A stretch of 33,360 nt of DNA, from positions 1-33,360 of IMG/VR virus record IMGVR_UViG_3300030450_001534; one strand, 5' to 3'. Under the pieces are notes generated by a model. That model searched no databases. It worked only from the letters and a program-made list of their open reading frames with translations, and had not been told where the DNA came from. Position 1 is the stretch's first letter; each line of letters starts with the position of its first letter. Source of the stretch: a virus. This document shows positions 3,959-33,360 of the stretch, in pieces. The position numbers and the translations under genes are program-made.

Positions 3959-4073
3959 ACGCATAAAGTGACGCATAAAACGCATAAAACACATAAATGA
4001 AACAAGAAATAACGCTTAAAACGCATAAAAATCCTATAAGGATTATGCGTTTATGCGCTATTTGTTTATGCGC
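3959..4073. other. Candidate replication origin: ACGCATAAA iteron array
   Basis: Nine copies of a 9-mer related to ACGCATAAA lie in 115 bases. Direct copies are at 3959-3967, 3971-3979, 3980-3988, 3989-3997 (ACACATAAA), 4012-4020 (ACGCTTAAA) and 4021-4029. Inverted copies are at 4042-4050, 4050-4058 and 4065-4073. Several abut at a 9-base period. The orientation switches around a perfect inverted repeat AATCCT-ATA-AGGATT (4030-4044), so the centre can form an extended hairpin. Iterons next to a replication initiator are the usual design of theta-type origins. The hairpin could also act as a transcription attenuator. Confidence 0.75.
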
Positions 4074-4087
4074 TACATATTTAAGCG

Positions 4088-5236: not shown

Positions 5237-5422
5237 ATGACCAATAGACAATATAAACAAGATATAAAAGATATAAAAGAAGTATTGAACAAGAGAATCA
5301 AACAAGGTGACTCCATGCACGATATAGCAATGAGCCTGGATGTTGATAAGGCAACGGTGTCCAGATGGGCAAAGAAGTTCAATATTAAGACTAACAATAA
5401 ATTTCCCAAGGGGGATAACTAA
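5237..5422 (+). CDS. Small helix-turn-helix protein
   Basis: A 61-residue protein. Residues about 24-50 (GDSMHDIAMSLDVDKATVSRWAKKF) read as a classic helix-turn-helix: a DIAMSLDV helix, a turn, then KATVSRWAKKF as recognition helix, as in Hin/Mu-like and transposase DNA-binding domains. It has no other domain, so it could be a small transcription regulator or a packaging accessory DNA-binding protein. It is the first gene after the candidate promoter at 5197-5225 and overlaps the next gene by one base (TAATG). A regulator of late transcription is an attractive guess, since the phage otherwise shows no obvious late activator. Confidence 0.65.
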   Translation: MTNRQYKQDIKDIKEVLNKRIKQGDSMHDIAMSLDVDKATVSRWAKKFNIKTNNKFPKGDN

Positions 5423-6003
5423 TGGCACAGTCATTTGATATAAGAACTAACCAGAAGCAGGTTGTTAAATCATTGGGTAGGAAAGCTAAGAAGCACATAC
5501 CAGAAGCTACCAGGTGGGCAATAAACAACACAGCTAAGAAACTACAGAAGGCCTATAAGGTTCAAACAGAAAAGAAATTAGATAGGCCTACTAAGTTCAC
5601 AACCAATGGATTTTTTATTAAGTATGCAAGAAGAAATAATCTTGAAGCATTTGTTCAAGTTAAAGATGTGGTTGCAAAGTATTTGAAGTGGCAGATAGAA
5701 GGCGGAGTCTCTACACCTAGCAGACCAGAAGCCGTGCCAACAGAGAATAGAAAGCTAAACAAATATGGAAACATACCTGGAAGGCAATTAGTTAAGAGCA
5801 ACAACATAGTAAGACCAACTAAGAAAGGTATGGGAGTCTGGACGAATCCAAAGAAAGGTACGCCCAAACTTTTAATAGCATTTAAAACTTCAATCAATTA
5901 CACAAAGAGATTTCCTTTCTACAAGATTGGTAACAATGTTATTAAGAATGTTTTTCCGAAAGAATTAAAGTTCTCATTAAGAAAAGAGATGAGAAGAAAA
6001 TGA
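5422..6003 (+). CDS. Tail-completion (gpZ-like) protein, tentative
   Basis: A 193-residue very basic protein. The stretch PEATRWAINNTAKKLQKAYKV followed by LDRPTKFTTNGFFIKYA resembles phage proteins of the minor tail Z type, which begin with a helix carrying ALNR/AINN-like residues and then a DRPTPFT-like motif. In lambda, gpZ acts in tail completion and lies near gpU; here the gene precedes the terminases, which is an unusual place. The start overlaps the upstream stop (TAATG) behind a GGGGGA ribosome-binding site. The family assignment is from memory and tentative. Confidence 0.55.
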   Translation: MAQSFDIRTNQKQVVKSLGRKAKKHIPEATRWAINNTAKKLQKAYKVQTEKKLDRPTKFTTNGFFIKYARRNNLEAFVQVKDVVAKYLKWQIEGGVSTPSRPEAVPTENRKLNKYGNIPGRQLVKSNNIVRPTKKGMGVWTNPKKGTPKLLIAFKTSINYTKRFPFYKIGNNVIKNVFPKELKFSLRKEMRRK

Positions 6004-8412: not shown

Positions 8413-8440
8413 TTGACAAGCTAAAAATGCAACTTACGGT
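8413..8440 (+). promoter_or_regulatory. Late promoter-like element, copy 1
   Basis: TTGACA (8413-8418), 16 bases, TACGGT (8435-8440). The spacer ends in ATGCAACT, and the block ATGCAACTTACGGTCTT is identical to that at 22415-22431. The element begins 5 bases after the large terminase stop and would drive the portal-capsid-tail block. Conservation inside the spacer is not expected for a plain sigma70 promoter and suggests an extra binding factor or a special sigma factor. Confidence 0.7.
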
Positions 8441-8467: not shown

Positions 8468-9058
8468 TTGGCTAATTTATTTGATTCAGAAAATTACCCT
8501 TCTAATGTGCCAGAGACATTAACGGTTGGCGACCGTTGGGCCTGGAAACGAGAAGATATAGCAACAGATTACATCCCCACTAGTTATACGCTAACTTATA
8601 GTTTTAGATTATTAAGTTCAGCCGCCACAGAAATAACGCTTGCCAGTTCAGTTATTACGGAAAGTTCTACAGCCTACATAGTAGAGGTGCCGAGTTCTAC
8701 AACCGCATCCTATACGAAAGGCGATTATAGTTACCAGGAATACATCACTAACGCATCTTCACAAAGAGTTGTAGTTAGTTCTGGTTATGCAACTTTAAAA
8801 GCCAACCTAGATGCTGATTCGTCAGATCCTAGATCCCACGCAAGAGTAGTGTTTGATGCACTAGAAGCAATGTTGGAATCCAGGGCCAGTATTGACCAAT
8901 CCAGTATGAGTATTGCAGGTAGATCTCTAAGCCGTATGACTCCAGAAGAAATAAGAGATTGGTACGAATATTACAGATACAAAGTTAATTTAGAAGTAAA
9001 GAAAGACAGGATCAGTAAAGGCCTAGCCACAGGATCCTTAATAAAAGCGAGATTTTAA
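8468..9058 (+). CDS. gpW-like head-tail joining protein with N-terminal extension
   Basis: A 196-residue protein between large terminase and portal, the place of gpW in lambda. The C-terminal part (about residues 125-185), FDALEAMLESRASIDQSSMS followed by SLSRMTPEEIRDWYEYYRYK, has the pattern of gpW-like connectors, which seal the portal before tail joining. The N-terminal 110 residues are Ser/Thr-rich and beta-like (TYTLTYSFRLLSSAATEITL), probably an immunoglobulin-like decoration domain absent from lambda gpW. The start codon is TTG, supported by GAGGGCAG 7 bases upstream and by the lack of any other in-frame start nearby. Confidence 0.65.
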   Translation: MANLFDSENYPSNVPETLTVGDRWAWKREDIATDYIPTSYTLTYSFRLLSSAATEITLASSVITESSTAYIVEVPSSTTASYTKGDYSYQEYITNASSQRVVVSSGYATLKANLDADSSDPRSHARVVFDALEAMLESRASIDQSSMSIAGRSLSRMTPEEIRDWYEYYRYKVNLEVKKDRISKGLATGSLIKARF

Positions 9059-18762: not shown

Positions 18763-19167
18763 ATGAAGGATCAAGAAACTATAAATTTTGTAGAAAAAGA
18801 AAAGTATAAACCTTTCTCCTGGGGGGTTAATGATTGCCACACCTTAGTTTTGAAGTATTTAGACGAAGTATGGGGCAAAGACGTACACAAAGAAGTGTTT
18901 AAGAAATACAACACAAAGAAAGAAGCTGTAAGTTATAGGAAAGAATACCCAGAATCGCTAAGCGATGGAATTATTAAAGCAGGAGCCATAAAAATACCAC
19001 CTAAGCTGGCCAGAATGGGAGATCTGCTTATTGTGGATCATAAGCTGTTTCAGTTGGCCCATATTTGCTTGGGATCCCAGATAGTTTCTGTGTTTGAAGG
19101 AAGTTGTACGACTATATTCAAAATAGTTGATTTTACATTATTTGATTGGGCCTTGAGGATAGAGTAA
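18763..19167 (+). CDS. DUF6950/NlpC-P60-like tail-tip peptidase (gpK position)
   Basis: A 134-residue protein between the gpL- and gpJ-like genes, where lambda has gpK. The motif KPFSWGVNDCHTLVLKYLDEVWG places a cysteine (about C27) at the start of a helix, as in NlpC/P60 and DUF6950 proteins, and a possible catalytic histidine follows in FQLAHICLGSQ (about H104). GDLLIVD precedes it, also typical. Such proteins are thought to cut or loosen peptidoglycan during entry or to shape the tip. The start follows the upstream stop by 2 bases and the end overlaps the next start (TAATG). Confidence 0.7.
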   Translation: MKDQETINFVEKEKYKPFSWGVNDCHTLVLKYLDEVWGKDVHKEVFKKYNTKKEAVSYRKEYPESLSDGIIKAGAIKIPPKLARMGDLLIVDHKLFQLAHICLGSQIVSVFEGSCTTIFKIVDFTLFDWALRIE

Positions 19168-22100
19168 TGCCAGGAGCAGTATCAGCAGTTAAAGCAGTAA
19201 TAGATTTCTTTTACGTTGTATTTTGGGCAGCAGGTGTAGGCAATACTGCTGCTACAGTTCTGAGTTATATAGCGGCAGGTGCAACCTTTAATGCCATAGG
19301 TGGGGCATTAAACAGCTTATATAAAGTTCCACAAATAGGTCTTGCCCAACAAGGGGCAACGGTATTAAGTAATTCAAGATCCAGTTCCGCGCCTTTGCCT
19401 GTTATATATGGAGTAAGGCGTGTAGGTGGTGTTCAAGTATTTATTGGAACGTCAGATGGTTACACTATGGATGGAGCAGTAACCGATGAGTTTCCTAATG
19501 AATACCTAAATATGGTTATTGCTTTATGCGAAGGCCCTATAGGCGCAGTAGAAAAAGTTTATGCTAATAATGTTGAAATATGGCCAGTACAAGACGAAAG
19601 ATTTCAAGGCAAAGTATTTTGCAATGTTCATTTAGGAGAAACAGGGCAAACTGTAGATAAGGATTTAAAGGCAATTTCAGATAGTAAAACTAAGCCATTT
19701 GAATGGGGGGATGAACACAGACTAAGAGGGATTGCTTATCTTTATATAAGGTTAGAAGCTAATGAAGATGTATGGAAATCAGGACTGCCGACTATAAATG
19801 CTGATGTAAAAGGAAGAATGGTAGAAGATACCAGAAATCAATACGCAGGCACCGCTTATTCTATAGATAGATATTCTAATAACCCTGCCCTTTGCATCAG
19901 GGATTATTTGATGAACTCAACATACGGCAGAGGAATACCAGGAAGCCAAATAAGTGATAGCGCATTTGAAGCGGCGGCTAATTATTGTGATGAAGAAATA
20001 GACTTTGTTTTAGATGATGGTAATACAGTTAGACAAAAAAGATTCACTTTAAACGGAGTAGTGACTGTAGGTGAGTCAAGTTTAGATATTCTAAATAAAT
20101 TACTTAGTAGCTGTAGGGGGATGCTTGTTTATACAGGCGGTTTTTACAAATTAATTATTGATAAAGCTGAAAGTGCTTCATTAACATTTGATGAATCAAA
20201 TATTCTGCCCAATTTCAATATAACTCTACCAGGTAAAAACAGCTTAGCTAACAGAGTTAGTGCTAACTATTTTAATCCTGATAGAGAATGGCAAGCTGAT
20301 TTTGAATACGTTGAAAGTGCAGCTTACAAGACTGCTGACAATGAAATGCTGCTAGAGAGAAAAATAGAATTGCCATTTACAGCAGATAGATTGATGGCTT
20401 TTTATATTGCCGAACAAACAATGAAACAGTCTAGGCAAGGACTTTTAATTGAATTTAATACAACGCAAGAGGGCCTACTAGCAGAGGTGGGAGATGTTAT
20501 ATACATTAAATTAGATGCGCCTGGTTGGACAAGCCTTAATAGTGGATCTGGTAAGTTGTTTAGAGTTATACAAGTTACCTTAGAAGCAAACGATGAAGTT
20601 GCTATTGTGGCTATGGAATATGATGCAAATGTCTATGTTCACGGTACCGCTAGTGCAATAGATACTGCCCCTAATACAAACCTTCCTTCTTTATCTACGG
20701 TTAATGCACCAACATCTATAACTGCAACAGAAACGCTATTGTTTAATGATCCAAAAATTACCAACAGAATTACTTTAGCTTGGGCATCTTCTCCATCTTC
20801 TTATTTAGAAAAATATGAAGTGGCTTACATTGCAGGAACAAGCGGTAAAACATATACACAAGCAGGTACGGTAACAGGAAAGCAATTTACAATAGATAAT
20901 TTAGATCCAGGGGTTTATCAATTTGCTGTTAGATCTGTTAATACTGCAAATTTTAAATCCGATTATGTAAGCGTACTCTTAAAGGTTAATGGAACAAATA
21001 CCTTACCTGCTGTTAATCCGCCTGGAATAACTGGTGTAACTGAATCACTTGTATCAACTACTTTAGGATCAGGAATAAAAGCAAAAGCAGTTTTATCATG
21101 GACAGCTATAGCAAACAGCGATTGGGAAGCATTAGGAATAAATATAGAAAGTTATGAGGTTGAATATAAATTAACTAGCGAATCTACTAATTTTGAAAGA
21201 CTAGGATCAGCAACAGGTACTTTCTTTGAGTTTTTTGATATAGCACCTGGTAATTATGATTTTAGAGTAAGAGCAGTTAATGACGCAGGAATAAAATCAG
21301 CTTATTCTGCTATTGCGGCAGAAATTACAGGACTAAGCGCGGCCCCTGCTAATGTGGCTAGTTTCTATCTAAGAGTTGAAAGCACACAGGCAAATCTTTC
21401 CTGGACACCATCACCAGATATAGATGTTAAGGTTGGTGGTACGTTTGAGATAAGACATTCTGTGGCAACAAGTGGTGCTACTTGGGGTACGGCTATAAAA
21501 ATAGGTTCAGATGTTGCAGGATCTTCTAATTCAACTTCAATGCCTTTATTAGTTGGTACTTATTTAATAAAAGCCGTTGATTCTACAGGAAATAAATCAG
21601 CAGCAGCCAAATCAATAGTCAATACCGTATCACCTTCTTTGTTTGATAAAAGAACAGCAGCAACGGTTACAGACACTTCTTTTGCAGGTACAAAAACAAA
21701 TATGGTTATAGATTCTGATACAGGTTATCTGAAATTTGAAGCCGATACGCCCTGGGATAGCGTTGCAGGTGATATTGATACTTGGGGCCTAATAGATTCA
21801 GTTGGTGGCGCAGATCTATCTGGATCTTATGAATTTACAAACAAAATAGATCTAGGTGCTGTAGCTAATGCCACCCTATCAAGCAGTATAAGTTTCAATG
21901 CAGTTTCTACCTCTGATATATGGGATAACTATTTGCAGAATATAGACTCTTGGGAAGCTGTTGATGCCAATACTTTTGATGATCTCAATGCCACTATGTT
22001 CATCAGCAGCACTAATGACGATCCTGCAAGTGGGGGAGCAACCTGGTCAGACTATCAAGAATTTACTATTGGTAACTATTACGGCAGAGGGTTTAAATTT

Positions 22101-22403
22101 AAAGTTGAATGCACTTCTGGTGATGCAACTCACCAAATAAACATAACGCAATTAGTGGCAAAAGCAGAAGTTTATTACCGTTTTGAATCAGAAACAGGAA
22201 CTACTAATGCAGGTGGTACGGCTTTTACTTATGGCACGGCCTTTTTATCTACACCACAGATAGCTATAACGGCCAATGACATGGCTACAGGAGATTATTA
22301 CGCCATCACCAGTTCATCAGCTACAGGTTTTACATTACGTTTTTATAATTCTAGCGGTACTGGCATATCCAGAACTGCTTACTATTTAGCAAGGGGATAT
22401 TGA
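19167..22403 (+). CDS. Tail tip/host specificity protein (gpJ-like)
   Basis: About 1078 residues from the ATG at 19167, which overlaps the previous stop as TAATG; a longer frame from 19146 is unlikely. It should form the tail tip and central fibre. The N-terminus is hydrophobic (FFYVVFWAAGVGNTAATVLSYIAAG). The hub core contains SSSAPLPVIYGVRRVGGVQVF and YLNMVIALCEGPIG, then RNQYAGTAYSIDRYSNNPALCIRDYL and LLSSCRGMLVYTGGFYKLI, all usual for gpJ/TipJ-type proteins. Fibronectin type III-like domains follow (about 530-620 and 640-740, each ending PGxYxFxVRxVN). The C-terminal 300 residues are beta-rich and may contact the receptor. Its stop codon lies inside the next promoter element. Confidence 0.88.
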   Translation: MPGAVSAVKAVIDFFYVVFWAAGVGNTAATVLSYIAAGATFNAIGGALNSLYKVPQIGLAQQGATVLSNSRSSSAPLPVIYGVRRVGGVQVFIGTSDGYTMDGAVTDEFPNEYLNMVIALCEGPIGAVEKVYANNVEIWPVQDERFQGKVFCNVHLGETGQTVDKDLKAISDSKTKPFEWGDEHRLRGIAYLYIRLEANEDVWKSGLPTINADVKGRMVEDTRNQYAGTAYSIDRYSNNPALCIRDYLMNSTYGRGIPGSQISDSAFEAAANYCDEEIDFVLDDGNTVRQKRFTLNGVVTVGESSLDILNKLLSSCRGMLVYTGGFYKLIIDKAESASLTFDESNILPNFNITLPGKNSLANRVSANYFNPDREWQADFEYVESAAYKTADNEMLLERKIELPFTADRLMAFYIAEQTMKQSRQGLLIEFNTTQEGLLAEVGDVIYIKLDAPGWTSLNSGSGKLFRVIQVTLEANDEVAIVAMEYDANVYVHGTASAIDTAPNTNLPSLSTVNAPTSITATETLLFNDPKITNRITLAWASSPSSYLEKYEVAYIAGTSGKTYTQAGTVTGKQFTIDNLDPGVYQFAVRSVNTANFKSDYVSVLLKVNGTNTLPAVNPPGITGVTESLVSTTLGSGIKAKAVLSWTAIANSDWEALGINIESYEVEYKLTSESTNFERLGSATGTFFEFFDIAPGNYDFRVRAVNDAGIKSAYSAIAAEITGLSAAPANVASFYLRVESTQANLSWTPSPDIDVKVGGTFEIRHSVATSGATWGTAIKIGSDVAGSSNSTSMPLLVGTYLIKAVDSTGNKSAAAKSIVNTVSPSLFDKRTAATVTDTSFAGTKTNMVIDSDTGYLKFEADTPWDSVAGDIDTWGLIDSVGGADLSGSYEFTNKIDLGAVANATLSSSISFNAVSTSDIWDNYLQNIDSWEAVDANTFDDLNATMFISSTNDDPASGGATWSDYQEFTIGNYYGRGFKFKVECTSGDATHQINITQLVAKAEVYYRFESETGTTNAGGTAFTYGTAFLSTPQIAITANDMATGDYYAITSSSATGFTLRFYNSSGTGISRTAYYLARGY

Positions 22404-22427
22404 CAATATGAATATGCAACTTACGGT
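22400..22427 (+). promoter_or_regulatory. Late promoter-like element, copy 2
   Basis: TTGACA (22400-22405), 16 bases, TACGGT (22422-22427). It shares ATGCAACTTACGGTCTT with copy 1 and overlaps the stop codon of the gpJ-like gene. It would drive the tail fibre gene, whose ATG is 40 bases downstream behind AAAGGTGGG. Confidence 0.7.
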
Positions 22428-22467: not shown

Positions 22468-24552
22468 ATGGCACAACATGATTATGTAATAGCAAATGCG
22501 TCTGGTGCTACAGTTAGAGCAGACATTAACAATATGGCTTTGGCCATTTCTTCAAACAATAGCGGATCTTCCGCACCATCCACTACTTATGCTTATGAAT
22601 TTTGGATAGACACAGGCAATAGTTTATTAAAACTAAGAAACGCGGCCAATAATGCCTGGATCACCATGCCTTTATCTGTCACGGCAGATAATACGGTTGA
22701 TGTAAACGGCGGCACAATAGACGGCACTAATATAGGTGCTAGTTCAGCAGGAACAGGTGCTTTCACTACTTTAGCTGCTTCTGGTGCTACAGATCTTAAC
22801 TCTACATTGGCCGTGTCAGGAAATGTATCTTTAGACGGATCCGCTAATGAATTAAGGTTTTATGAAGGTGCTAACTACGTTGGTTTTGAAGCACCTGCCC
22901 TAACAGGCGATCAAATATGGGTGTTGCCTGCCGCAGACGGTTCTGCAAGTCAGGTACTTACCACTAATGGATCTGGAACTTTATCCTGGGCAACGGCATC
23001 TAGTGGGCCTACATTTAAAACATTTGGCACTTCTTCAATTATGGTTGGAGATGATGCCACAGGAACTATAAGTGCTGCAAATTACAATACTGGTTTAGGG
23101 GTAGATATTTTTGCAGCGTTGACTTCTGGCGATGCAAATACAGTTTTGGGATTCAGCGCAGGTAAGACTTTAAATACTGGCCAAAGGAACGTGATAATCG
23201 GCTATAACGCCATGGATGCAGCAAATACTGGATCCGATAGCGTAATGATTGGCTATGAAGCAGGCGGCGCGGTAGTGGATGCGGTGGAGAACGTAGCTGT
23301 CGGATATTACGCAGGTGCGGCCGACATGGGCGATTACAATACCTTTGTAGGTGCAAGCGCAGGACAGAATGTTACAGGCCAGAAAAATACTTTTTTTGGA
23401 GCCAGATCAGGCGATGCTTGTTCGTCAGGAAATAATAATATCGGAATTGGTTATGATGCTCTTGGTGCTTTAACGACATCAGAAGATTGTCTGGCCATTG
23501 GTACAAATGCAGGCAAATCTACTAATTCTCCTAGAAATATGTATATTGGTTATGATGCAGGTGCCGCACAGAGCGGATCGAGCGACAATATAGCTATTGG
23601 TTATAGTGCTTTAGTACGACAAACAACAGGCGCAAACGGAAATATTGCTATAGGTAACTACGCAGGTAGAGCTGTTGTAGATTCTGCTAGTACATCGCAA
23701 CTCTTAGCTATTGGGCATTATGTTGCTTCCGATAATTCTGCCGCATTAGCAGGTTATCAAAATTGTTTTGTAGGTTACAACATAGCATCAGCGTCAGGTT
23801 TAGCAGGAGCGTTCCAGAATACGGCTTTAGGTATGAACGCTATGTCAGATTTAACGACGGGCGATTACAACTGTGGAATCGGAAATCATGCCCTACACGC
23901 TATAACTTCTGGAATTTGGAATACTGGAATTGGAATGGATTCTTTAAACGCTATTACAACTGGCGATTATAATACTTGCGTGGGTAAAGGTTCAGGAGAT
24001 TCATTGGGTACAAGTTCGCACAATAATGTCTGTATTGGTTCTAATGCCAAAGGATCATCAAGTTTTAATTATCATCTTATTGTTATTGGATCAGGCATAT
24101 CAGCAGCAAATGTAGACAATCGTTTTAGTTTTGGTAAATCAAGCAATATTGTTCACAATGACTTTGGAACTAATGCTTCTTGGACTCGTACTTCGGATGA
24201 AAGGAAAAAGAAAAATATTAAAGAAGATACTCTAGGATTAGATTTTATTAATGATCTAAAAACTGTCACGTTTGAATGGAAACCTAACTGTGAATTTCCA
24301 GAACACTTTAAAGACTATAAAGAAAATCCAGAAGATAACATGATGGAAACAGATAAAGTTTTACACGGAATGATTGCGCAAGATGTAAAAGCAGCACTTG
24401 ATAAAGCAGGTGTAGATACATTTGGTGGTTGGACAGTAGATCCAGACGACGGTTGCCAAGAACTATCACAAGAAATGTTTGTGCATCCATTAATACGAGC
24501 AGTACAAGAATTATCTGCAAAAGTTGAAGAATTAGAAAATAAACTTAATTAA
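22468..24552 (+). CDS. Tail fibre with C-terminal S74 chaperone domain
   Basis: A 694-residue receptor-binding fibre. The N-terminal 60 residues (IANASGATVRADINNMALAISSNNSG) are a common phage attachment module. Residues about 200-570 carry a dozen or so short repeats of the form N..IGY.A.....G, similar to trimeric beta-helical head repeats. The C-terminal 119 residues are an intramolecular chaperone (peptidase S74/endosialidase type): SDERKKKNIKE starts the domain with the self-cleavage serine at about 576, HGMIAQDVKAAL follows, and a coiled coil VQELSAKVEELENKLN ends it. The chaperone trims itself off after trimer folding. Expression is likely from its own promoter copy. Confidence 0.88.
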   Translation: MAQHDYVIANASGATVRADINNMALAISSNNSGSSAPSTTYAYEFWIDTGNSLLKLRNAANNAWITMPLSVTADNTVDVNGGTIDGTNIGASSAGTGAFTTLAASGATDLNSTLAVSGNVSLDGSANELRFYEGANYVGFEAPALTGDQIWVLPAADGSASQVLTTNGSGTLSWATASSGPTFKTFGTSSIMVGDDATGTISAANYNTGLGVDIFAALTSGDANTVLGFSAGKTLNTGQRNVIIGYNAMDAANTGSDSVMIGYEAGGAVVDAVENVAVGYYAGAADMGDYNTFVGASAGQNVTGQKNTFFGARSGDACSSGNNNIGIGYDALGALTTSEDCLAIGTNAGKSTNSPRNMYIGYDAGAAQSGSSDNIAIGYSALVRQTTGANGNIAIGNYAGRAVVDSASTSQLLAIGHYVASDNSAALAGYQNCFVGYNIASASGLAGAFQNTALGMNAMSDLTTGDYNCGIGNHALHAITSGIWNTGIGMDSLNAITTGDYNTCVGKGSGDSLGTSSHNNVCIGSNAKGSSSFNYHLIVIGSGISAANVDNRFSFGKSSNIVHNDFGTNASWTRTSDERKKKNIKEDTLGLDFINDLKTVTFEWKPNCEFPEHFKDYKENPEDNMMETDKVLHGMIAQDVKAALDKAGVDTFGGWTVDPDDGCQELSQEMFVHPLIRAVQELSAKVEELENKLN

Positions 24553-29843: not shown

Positions 29844-29871
29844 TTGACGTTCTGAAAATGCAACTTATAAA
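29844..29871 (+). promoter_or_regulatory. Late promoter-like element, copy 3 (lysis genes)
   Basis: TTGACG (29844-29849), 16 bases, TATAAA (29866-29871). It shares ATGCAACTTA and the TGAAAATG context with the other two copies but not the CGGTCTT extension. The holin ATG (29879) is only 7 bases after the -10-like hexamer, so the transcript would begin at or next to the start codon. Confidence 0.7.
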
Positions 29872-29878
29872 TTAACCC

Positions 29879-30352
29879 ATGAAAGAATTATTAAAAGGCG
29901 TTATTGGTGCTGTAGCACCAACAATAGGTACTGCCCTTGGTGGGCCAATGGGCAATATGGCAATGAATATGGTTTCTCAGGCGTTGGGATGCAAGAACAC
30001 ACCAAAAGATGTTGAAAAAGCTGTGCAGAACGCCACGCCTGAGCAGCTTGCAGATCTAAAAAAGATTGATAATGATTTTGAAATCAAGATGAAAGAATTA
30101 GACGTAGATCTATTTGCCCTGGAAACAGCAGACATACAAGGTGCTAGATCTATGTTTGCGAGAGATTGGACGGCTAGAATCATAGGTGTTGCTGTTATTG
30201 GTGGCTTCATGGGTTATATATTTCTAGTAACCATACAACCACCAGAACAAAATTCAGAAGCATTAATAAACCTAGTTCTAGGTTATCTAGGTGGCCTGGC
30301 TTCTGCCATCATATCTTTCTACTTTGGTGCATCGCACTCTAAAGATGATTAA
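29879..30352 (+). CDS. Holin, three-helix gene-transfer-agent type
   Basis: A 157-residue membrane protein that should set lysis timing. The N-terminus (GVIGAVAPTIGTALGGPMGNMAMNMVSQALG) is hydrophobic. A soluble middle (about 42-92) has TPEQLADLKKIDNDFEIKMKELDVDLFALETADIQGARSMFARDWTAR, the signature of GTA_holin_3TM proteins. Two membrane segments follow (IIGVAVIGGFMGYIFLVTI and LINLVLGYLGGLASAIISFYFG), then a short charged tail. There is no Shine-Dalgarno sequence and the promoter is immediately upstream, so the mRNA may be leaderless. It overlaps the endolysin gene by 8 bases. Confidence 0.9.
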   Translation: MKELLKGVIGAVAPTIGTALGGPMGNMAMNMVSQALGCKNTPKDVEKAVQNATPEQLADLKKIDNDFEIKMKELDVDLFALETADIQGARSMFARDWTARIIGVAVIGGFMGYIFLVTIQPPEQNSEALINLVLGYLGGLASAIISFYFGASHSKDD

Positions 30353-30779
30353 AGAATTAACTGAACACCTTATAGAATTTGAGGGGTTAAGGCTCAAGCC
30401 TTATCATTGCACGTCTGGCAAACTCACTATTGGGATAGGCCGAAACTTAGACGATAGAGGTATAAGCGAAGACGAAGCTATGGTTATGCTTAAAAACGAC
30501 ATAACTATAGTGCAAGAGGAATTACTGGCCAGATGGCCCTGGTTCGAGGATCTACCACCCAGAGCAAAGTTAGTGATGTATGACTTGGGATTTAATATGG
30601 GCGTTCCTGCTATATCTAACTTCCAGAATATGTTGAAAGATCTAGCGGATGAAAATTGGGAAGGTGCGGCCAAGAATCTACTAGACTCTAAGTACGCACA
30701 ACAGGTAGGAAGAAGGGCAATATATAACGCTCAACTGTTGGAAACAGCGAATGACCGTACATTGCCCTCTAAGGATTAA
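30345..30779 (+). CDS. Endolysin, T4-lysozyme-like (GH24) with E-C-T triad
   Basis: A 144-residue muramidase starting at the ATG that overlaps the holin stop (ATGATTAA). The active-site segment, EGLRLKPYHCTSGKLTIGIG, aligns with T4 lysozyme, but the catalytic aspartate (D20 in T4) is replaced by Cys: E-x8-C-x5-T. This version is common among phage GH24 enzymes, and a D20C change in T4 lysozyme is known to keep activity. The rest (GRNLDDRGIS, LGFNMGVPAISNFQNML, SKYAQQVGRRAIYNAQLL) is standard. No signal peptide is present, so export depends on the holin. Confidence 0.93.
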   Translation: MIKELTEHLIEFEGLRLKPYHCTSGKLTIGIGRNLDDRGISEDEAMVMLKNDITIVQEELLARWPWFEDLPPRAKLVMYDLGFNMGVPAISNFQNMLKDLADENWEGAAKNLLDSKYAQQVGRRAIYNAQLLETANDRTLPSKD

Positions 30780-30940
30780 TCCTCTTGTTTATATGAGATT
30801 GAAAAAGGTTTATGGCACGTTCCGCAGTTAGTGGCCGTAATTTCCCCACTTCTTTCTTTGTGGTTTAAAGCACTTATATAACCTTCCCAGGGGCCAGTTG
30901 CCCCACAATAATTACAGTATGCAAGTAGACTATCTTTCAC
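30776..30940 (-). CDS. 54-residue zinc-ribbon-like protein
   Basis: A short frame that ends the leftward arm, starting with GTG at 30940, 2 bases after the previous gene's stop. It reads AYCNYCGATGPW ... EITATNCGTCHKPFSISY: two CxxC-type pairs about 30 residues apart, a likely zinc ribbon. Its last 4 bases overlap the endolysin stop on the opposite strand, and a 12-base palindrome, AGGATTAATCCT (30772-30783), spans both stops. The ribosome-binding site is weak, so coupling to the upstream gene is likely. Zinc ribbons of this size in phages often bind nucleic acid or RNA polymerase; the role is unknown here. Confidence 0.7.
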   Translation of the reverse strand: MKDSLLAYCNYCGATGPWEGYISALNHKERSGEITATNCGTCHKPFSISYKQED

Positions 30941-33086: not shown

Positions 33087-33323
33087 TCACCCCTTATACG
33101 CTTTTAATAGTTTTTCAGTATCAACCTCAAGATGCTCGTAAAAATCAAGACCTCTTAAAACTAAATCGTATAATGTTTCTACCTGCTCTTTTGTTAATGT
33201 TGTATCTATATCAAACTGCAATCGTTTACCTACTTCTTCTTTCCCAGAAGCAGTCTGATCGGACATATAATCTCCTTCAAAAAATATAGTATTTATAAAG
33301 TTTTCTTTAATATTATTTTTCAT
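33087..33323 (-). CDS. Hypothetical protein crossing the circle junction
   Basis: The first leftward gene after the junction; its start lies in the terminal repeat (same codon at 60-62). From 33323 it has 78 residues behind the operon cassette GGGGTAAACAATG. An in-frame ATG at 33266 (MSDQTASG...) follows the strong site GAAGGAGATTAT and would give 59 residues. The C-terminal part, RLQFDIDTTLTKEQVETLYDLVLRGLDFYEHLEVDTEKLLKAY, is acidic and helical. The two good starts in one frame may both be used. The end overlaps the methyltransferase's ribosome-binding site. The function is unknown. Confidence 0.65.
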   Translation of the reverse strand: MKNNIKENFINTIFFEGDYMSDQTASGKEEVGKRLQFDIDTTLTKEQVETLYDLVLRGLDFYEHLEVDTEKLLKAYKG

Positions 33324-33360
33324 TGTTTACCCCTTATACCTCTTTGTTAATAATTTCTTT
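33262..33360. repeat. Terminal direct repeat, right copy
   Basis: This is the second copy of the 99-base terminal repeat. Removing one copy gives a unit genome of 33,261 bp. Position x at the left end corresponds to x + 33261 here: the start codon at 60-62 is the same as the one at 33321-33323. Confidence 0.95.

Follow-up and report, generated by a model that had tools for sequence, protein, structure and literature searches.

A putative late promoter class with a conserved spacer block in ocean phages and a small helix-turn-helix protein as its candidate reader

INTRODUCTION

The phage activators Ogr of P2, C of Mu, and MotA/AsiA of T4 bind upstream of the −35 element of their promoters or in its place, and the late promoters of the P2 Ogr/Delta class carry the dyad TGTTGT-N12-ACAACA near position −55. 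In the MerR family and for GcrA, a DNA-binding element is located between the −35 and −10 elements of a sigma70 promoter; MerR promoters possess long spacers of 19 to 20 nt with a dyad.

Here, a box found at three gene borders of an ocean virus of bacteria is compared with these systems. The DNA analyzed, a 33,360-base virus record, is referred to in its entirety as the window. The box contains an intact TTGAC at −35 and a conserved block within a spacer of 16 nt, and a helix-turn-helix (HTH) protein encoded at 5237-5422 is considered as its possible reader.

RESULTS

Three copies of the box in the window

The pattern TTGACR-N8-ATGCAACTTA has only three exact matches in the window, at 8413, 22400, and 29844, all of them on the plus strand. 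Box J1 (8413..8440) is composed of a −35 TTGACA at 8413-8418, the N8 stretch, the spacer block ATGCAACT at 8427-8434, and a −10 TACGGT at 8435-8440. Box J2 (22400..22427) has the same −35, block (22414-22421), and −10, and its −35 overlaps the TGA stop codon of the preceding tail protein gene (19146-22403). Box J3 (29844..29871) has TTGACG as −35, the same block at 29858-29865, and at 29866-29871 the −10 TATAAA, which lacks the final T.

A preliminary description had proposed these three sites as TTGACR, a 16-base spacer, and a hexamer starting with TA, with two copies identical over 17 bases. The sites are real: when the intergenic DNA of the window (1,444 bases with small margins) was searched for its best triple of 24-mers, J1/J2/J3 came out with 18 of 24 columns invariant, whereas the best triples in 100 dinucleotide shuffles of this DNA averaged 11.3 such columns and never exceeded 14. 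J1 and J2 indeed agree over ATGCAACTTACGGTCTT. A pattern search that allowed three mismatches was too loose to inform, with 1.08 matches expected and at least three matches in 10 of 100 shuffles. A weight matrix from 16 sites of the clade, the window's own three included, scored J1, J2, and J3 with 33.7 to 41.1 bits. The next best position in the window reached 8.3 bits and was intragenic, so that no fourth copy was found, as the description had stated from inspection by eye.

The three sites precede the head-tail block, the tail fibre gene, and the lysis genes, again as described. The proposed target of J1 is the gene for the head-tail joining protein (joiner; 8468..9058, plus strand; PHROG 5774, 4e-25), the start of the late structural operon; that of J2 is the tail fibre gene (22468..24552, plus strand), the product of which contains the Peptidase_S74 (S74 chaperone) domain. 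J3 would serve a gene of PHROG 1544 (29879..30352, plus strand), a family with no assigned function that we take to be holin-like, with the phage lysozyme gene downstream (30291..30779, plus strand; PF00959, 2.5e-11).

The putative −10 of J3 ends 7 nt 5' of the ATG. This gap was 7 nt in seven of the eight listed box-bearing sites, that of the window included, and 6 nt in L187, and no Shine-Dalgarno sequence was visible at the J3 sites when looked for by eye. Therefore, a leaderless lysis mRNA is predicted to start from J3. Of the 30 loci listed (from a total of 80), 22 contained a relative of the J3 gene but no box; these relatives were more distant homologues in other phages. Directly before J3 in L187 (606-2384), a gene encodes a 592-aa protein that resembled a CHASE2/adenylate cyclase by eye, which is unusual at a phage lysis border.

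Other features of the window

An identical direct repeat of 99 bases is present at both ends of the window, at 1-99 and 33262-33360. Therefore, the assembly is probably complete and represents a circular map. The contigs of many relatives start about 0.5 kb before TerL, which suggests a packaging end near TerS. The 129-base gap at 3959-4087, after the primase/helicase gene, contains iteron-like repeats with several copies of AACGCATAAA plus the inverted TTATGCGTTT and is a possible replication origin. The translation start leaders of the leftward genes on the minus strand, AGGGGTAAACAATGA, are nearly identical to each other and are located at 59-93, 402-436, 594-630, 928-962, and 33320-33354.

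Conservation of the box

A scan of viral contigs for exact matches to the box returned 58 stretches, and relatives carried it at the same three borders. Some of these matches were in unrelated DNA, as chance would lead one to expect for a collection of this size. Since a selection based on the box itself would be biased, relatives were chosen by TerL, and the DNA upstream of the joiner gene was then inspected. The check for relatives lacking the box at equivalent borders, which had been suggested in the preliminary description, was thereby run, and the box was present: TTGAC, a 16-nt spacer, and TAnnnT preceded the joiner gene in all 79 joiner-containing loci (L092, which has none, was left out) and thereby in all 41 distinct sequences. 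Among more distant loci, 19 of which had no joiner match, the box stood before the joiner in 34 of 64.

Across all 158 distinct joiner-upstream regions, 117 had a spacer of 16 nt, and spacers of 12, 14, and 17 nt occurred 3, 4, and 2 times, respectively; any spacer other than 16 that was tried occurred at most four times. The 117 regions display the sequence features of sigma70-type promoters, which are a TTGACA-like −35, a spacer of about 16 to 18 nt, and a −10 with T, A, and the final T, the latter being absent from J3. Some relatives have extra genes between TerL and the joiner gene, and the box remains beside the joiner. A box copy was seen only at this gene in 12 more distant contigs, and the three-copy arrangement is special to the clade of the window. 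Judged from these comparisons, the box is very probably a conserved class of late promoter and would be an old one.

Relation to known phages and hosts

According to TerL, the nearest isolates are Roseobacter phages of the CRP-822 type, with 49% identity to CRP-821, CRP-406, and CRP-811. The structural gene order of CRP-822-type marine phages is similar to that of the window. Unlike the window, the three isolates possess neither the HTH gene nor the box; in CRP-821 and CRP-811, no gap precedes the joiner gene. In the paper on this family, most of the low-GC subgroup V is predicted to infect SAR86, and promoters are not mentioned (PMC12629253). No description of the box was found in literature search results beyond this paper, and literature searches returned nothing on gene control in these uncultured marine phages and their SAR86-linked relatives.

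One relative (55% by TerL) was located in a SAR86 single-cell contig; it has both box and HTH gene and adjoins bacterial genes. In this contig, AG-390-L11 (L565-L567), DNA of this phage group extends over about 22 kb and is located beside genes of a bacterial chromosome, in contrast to the CRP-822-type family being called strictly lytic. The junction is possibly a provirus or an amplification chimera; no tRNA was found in the contig.

Candidate readers of the box

The preliminary description had suggested that a phage factor or a special sigma factor may read the box and had named the HTH protein at 5237-5422 and a zinc ribbon at 30776-30940. The idea of a phage sigma factor was not sustained: a profile search of the window with PF04542 yielded no match, with control matches in 10 of 14 genomes. 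No match appeared with the Ogr_Delta profile (PF04606) either, the control of which matched in E. coli. The profile PF00940 for a phage single-subunit RNA polymerase did not match, and its control matched nowhere either. Outside the window, the zinc ribbon was detected in G001 and G006 only; it was discarded since G007, which has the neighboring genes and two boxes, lacks it.

Strong comparative support was obtained for a late promoter class read with the aid of a phage factor, and of the two named candidates, the HTH protein was supported. The 61-aa protein (5237..5422, plus strand) matches generic HTH families weakly, and its model has three helices with a mean pLDDT of 74.5. Sequence searches of the PDB with the family returned generic HTH proteins with one match under 0.001 (RacA), and a fold search of the PDB with the model found no match at 0.001 or better. 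Relatives are present in G001, G010, G014-G018, and G021.

Seventy-nine rows, with some contigs counted twice, represented loci with at least 1.9 kb of DNA upstream of TerL. The box and the HTH gene occurred together in 44 rows, 21 had neither, 14 had the box without the HTH gene in the flank, and none had the HTH gene without the box. Counted by distinct 70-mers, these were 22 with both, 15 with neither, 6 with the box only, and 2 boxes with both states. One of the 14 flank-negative rows, L333 (contig G026, 31.6 kb), is a true exception with a box and no HTH gene detectable anywhere in the contig. The boxes of the other 13 are of the GAAAACC or AAAAACC type; in this group, the HTH gene is about 4.7 kb upstream in G021 and elsewhere in the contig in G047, and among the members checked, it lies farther away than the flank in most of the clade.

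For a TerL tree, 299 rows were reduced to 124 representatives by TerL clustering, which placed the exception L333/G026 outside the HTH counts; L334 was scored as HTH bearing by hand. The box was present in 30 of 30 HTH-bearing representatives and in none of the eight scored as HTH lacking, the other 86 being without an HTH score. The box label changed five times on the tree and the HTH state three times, and both changed together on three of three independent paths, which is too few for a sign test to reach 0.05 (P = 0.25). One of the three HTH changes separates a distant outgroup, and the tree is a quick one with recombination likely.

When the open reading frame families of four box-bearing genomes were screened, only the HTH family was present in 14 of 14 box-bearing and 0 of 6 box-less genomes, and the next best families reached 10 and 0. 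The 14 genomes had been chosen with their HTH state known, so that this part of the result is partly by construction; the absence from the six box-less genomes and the comparison with the other families are not. G026 and G010 were outside both sets, and with G026 included, the count for the HTH family is 14 of 15. The gene adjacent to the HTH gene (the 5422-6003 family) was found in four of the six box-less genomes, which constitute the fair test. G062 and G031 lack this neighbor, and their contigs may be truncated, leaving four fully evaluable genomes. In L392, L404, and L407, the usual flanking genes (as in L413) are present with a 4-base overlap, and the HTH gene is cleanly missing. HNH endonuclease-like genes, identified by eye, are located near the place of the missing HTH gene in L398, L462, and L473 and are possible agents of its replacement.

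With TerL distance taken into account, distances between spacer blocks still correlated with those between HTH proteins (partial r = 0.53, 29 representatives), and none of 2,000 permutations was as high; after HTH distance, TerL distance added nothing (0.01). Two TerL clades that are separate from each other (L367/L375 and L517) combine HTH proteins of the SSR..AMQFG form with the block TTGGCTCA. The N8 stretch, used as a control, also correlated with HTH distance (partial r = 0.35). Therefore, shared ancestry or linkage explains part of the correlation.

These data have to be weighed against the alternative that host RNA polymerase alone reads the boxes, by sigma70 or by a host alternative sigma factor favoring the block, with the HTH protein merely traveling along. 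TTGAC, the 16-nt spacer, and TAnnnT provide the elements required by sigma70, the box of G026 exists without an HTH gene, and joint inheritance, as illustrated by N8, could tie gene and box. This alternative is nevertheless considered unlikely in view of three properties of the spacer block and the −10 element described below: a −10 held off consensus, its improvement where the HTH gene is cleanly absent from its slot, and a concerted block change within one genome.

Spacer block and −10 element

The spacer block is clade specific, with ATGCAACT in the clade of the window and ATGGCACT, ATGCACAT, ATGCACCT, GAAAACCA, ATGGTTCA, TTGGCTCA, and others elsewhere. Within 93 box-bearing representatives, its columns contain 0.58 to 1.59 bits of information versus 0.02 to 0.78 bits for N8. 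In G010 (68% by TerL), J1 and J2 both have ATGGCACTTA, the same two changes at both borders, and their N8 stretches differ. This argues for a common reader. J2 of L263 and L264 (tail protein 81 to 84% identical) likewise contains ATGGCACTTA.

In the clade of the window, the block starts with ATG (ATG CAA CTT...) and opens short frames, and it might be the conserved start of a short peptide or an RNA leader element instead of a DNA site. This is very improbable. The ATG is absent from relatives (GAAAACCA, AAAAACCA, TTGGCTCA), which led to rejection of a small peptide starting ATGCAACTT; an Rfam search yielded no match, and the leaders fold little better than shuffled sequences (z of −0.2 to −1.2). 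A dyad operator of the TTG...CAA type was also discarded, the TTG-N14-CAA spacing of the window copies being lost in relatives. Distant relatives (e.g., G016:7591-7604), unlike the clade of the window, have the palindrome TAGATATATCTA or TAGATTAATCTA just 3' of the J1 promoter; TAGATATATCTA was rejected as an HTH-linked element since it persists in the presence of the box and, in many relatives, also in its absence.

The −10 hexamer was TAGTGT in 59 of the 93 box-bearing representatives, and in 91 of them, it agreed with TATAAT at only three of six positions. An A at the fifth position occurred in 1 of 93, versus nine of nine nested box-less representatives (L392, L404, L407, L411, L336, L462, L473, L475, and L343), as scored by eye. 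Where the HTH gene is cleanly missing (L392, L404, L407), the promoter in the equivalent position combines a −35 of TTGCAA or TTGAAA with TAATAT, TATTAT, or TAGTAT, and the −10 in the box-less L462 and L473 is TATAAT. A −10 held far from consensus next to an intact −35 would fit dependence on an activator.

The co-occurrence of HTH gene and box would also be expected if the HTH protein were a repressor with its operator between −35 and −10, holding the late genes off early in infection, and a site overlapping the promoter core is the classic arrangement of repressors. Repression needs no poor −10, yet the HTH-bearing genomes keep one and those lacking the gene have a better one, making this explanation improbable, still more so than reading by the host polymerase alone.

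The box, its positions, its conservation, its co-occurrence with the HTH gene, and the linked changes were all read from sequence.

DISCUSSION

The boxes are probably late promoters that are used by host sigma70 and depend on the HTH protein (5237-5422) as reader and activator. The host sigma70 RNA polymerase would recognize the invariant TTGAC at −35 and the minimal TAnnnT at −10. The HTH protein, produced at the end of the early/middle operon beside the terminase genes, would bind to the conserved block between both elements (ATGCAACT in the window) and compensate in this way for a −10 kept far from the consensus. The head-tail, tail fibre, and lysis genes would start only once the HTH protein has accumulated. 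In this scheme, we infer transcription from the boxes, binding of the HTH protein, the timing, and the sign of the effect, which is activation.

More tentatively, and with somewhat less confidence than even, a single-domain HTH protein of about 50 to 65 residues may run the whole late program of widespread marine phages by means of a block in the spacer of sigma70-type promoters with an anti-consensus −10. Reader and box would co-evolve, the box would have reached three borders by spreading within the clade of the window, and the copy at the lysis border would give rise to a leaderless mRNA. If true, a switch of the late genes would be at hand for uncultured marine phages that are abundant and have relatives linked to SAR86 among them, and the HTH protein would be a minimal phage activator acting from inside the promoter spacer. 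The natural series of box and reader variants makes the recognition mappable.

The proposed system differs from the P2 Ogr/Delta class in that the window has no Ogr_Delta protein and in that its TTG-N14-CAA arrangement is located at −35, not at −55, and is lost in relatives. Similar to the MerR family and GcrA, the DNA-binding element would be positioned between −35 and −10 of a sigma70 promoter. Unlike MerR promoters, the spacer is 16 nt, and by eye, the listed boxes have no conserved dyad. The GcrA profile matched 1 of 24 HTH members (E value of 0.0072), the HTH proteins, with about 50 to 65 aa, are too short for a second, sigma-binding C-terminal domain, and the boxes of the window are without GANTC. 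As with P2 Ogr, Mu C, and T4 MotA/AsiA, a small phage protein made earlier is proposed here to switch on a late or middle class of promoters with poor core elements; unlike the targets of those activators, the boxes of the window keep TTGAC intact and carry the conserved block inside the spacer.
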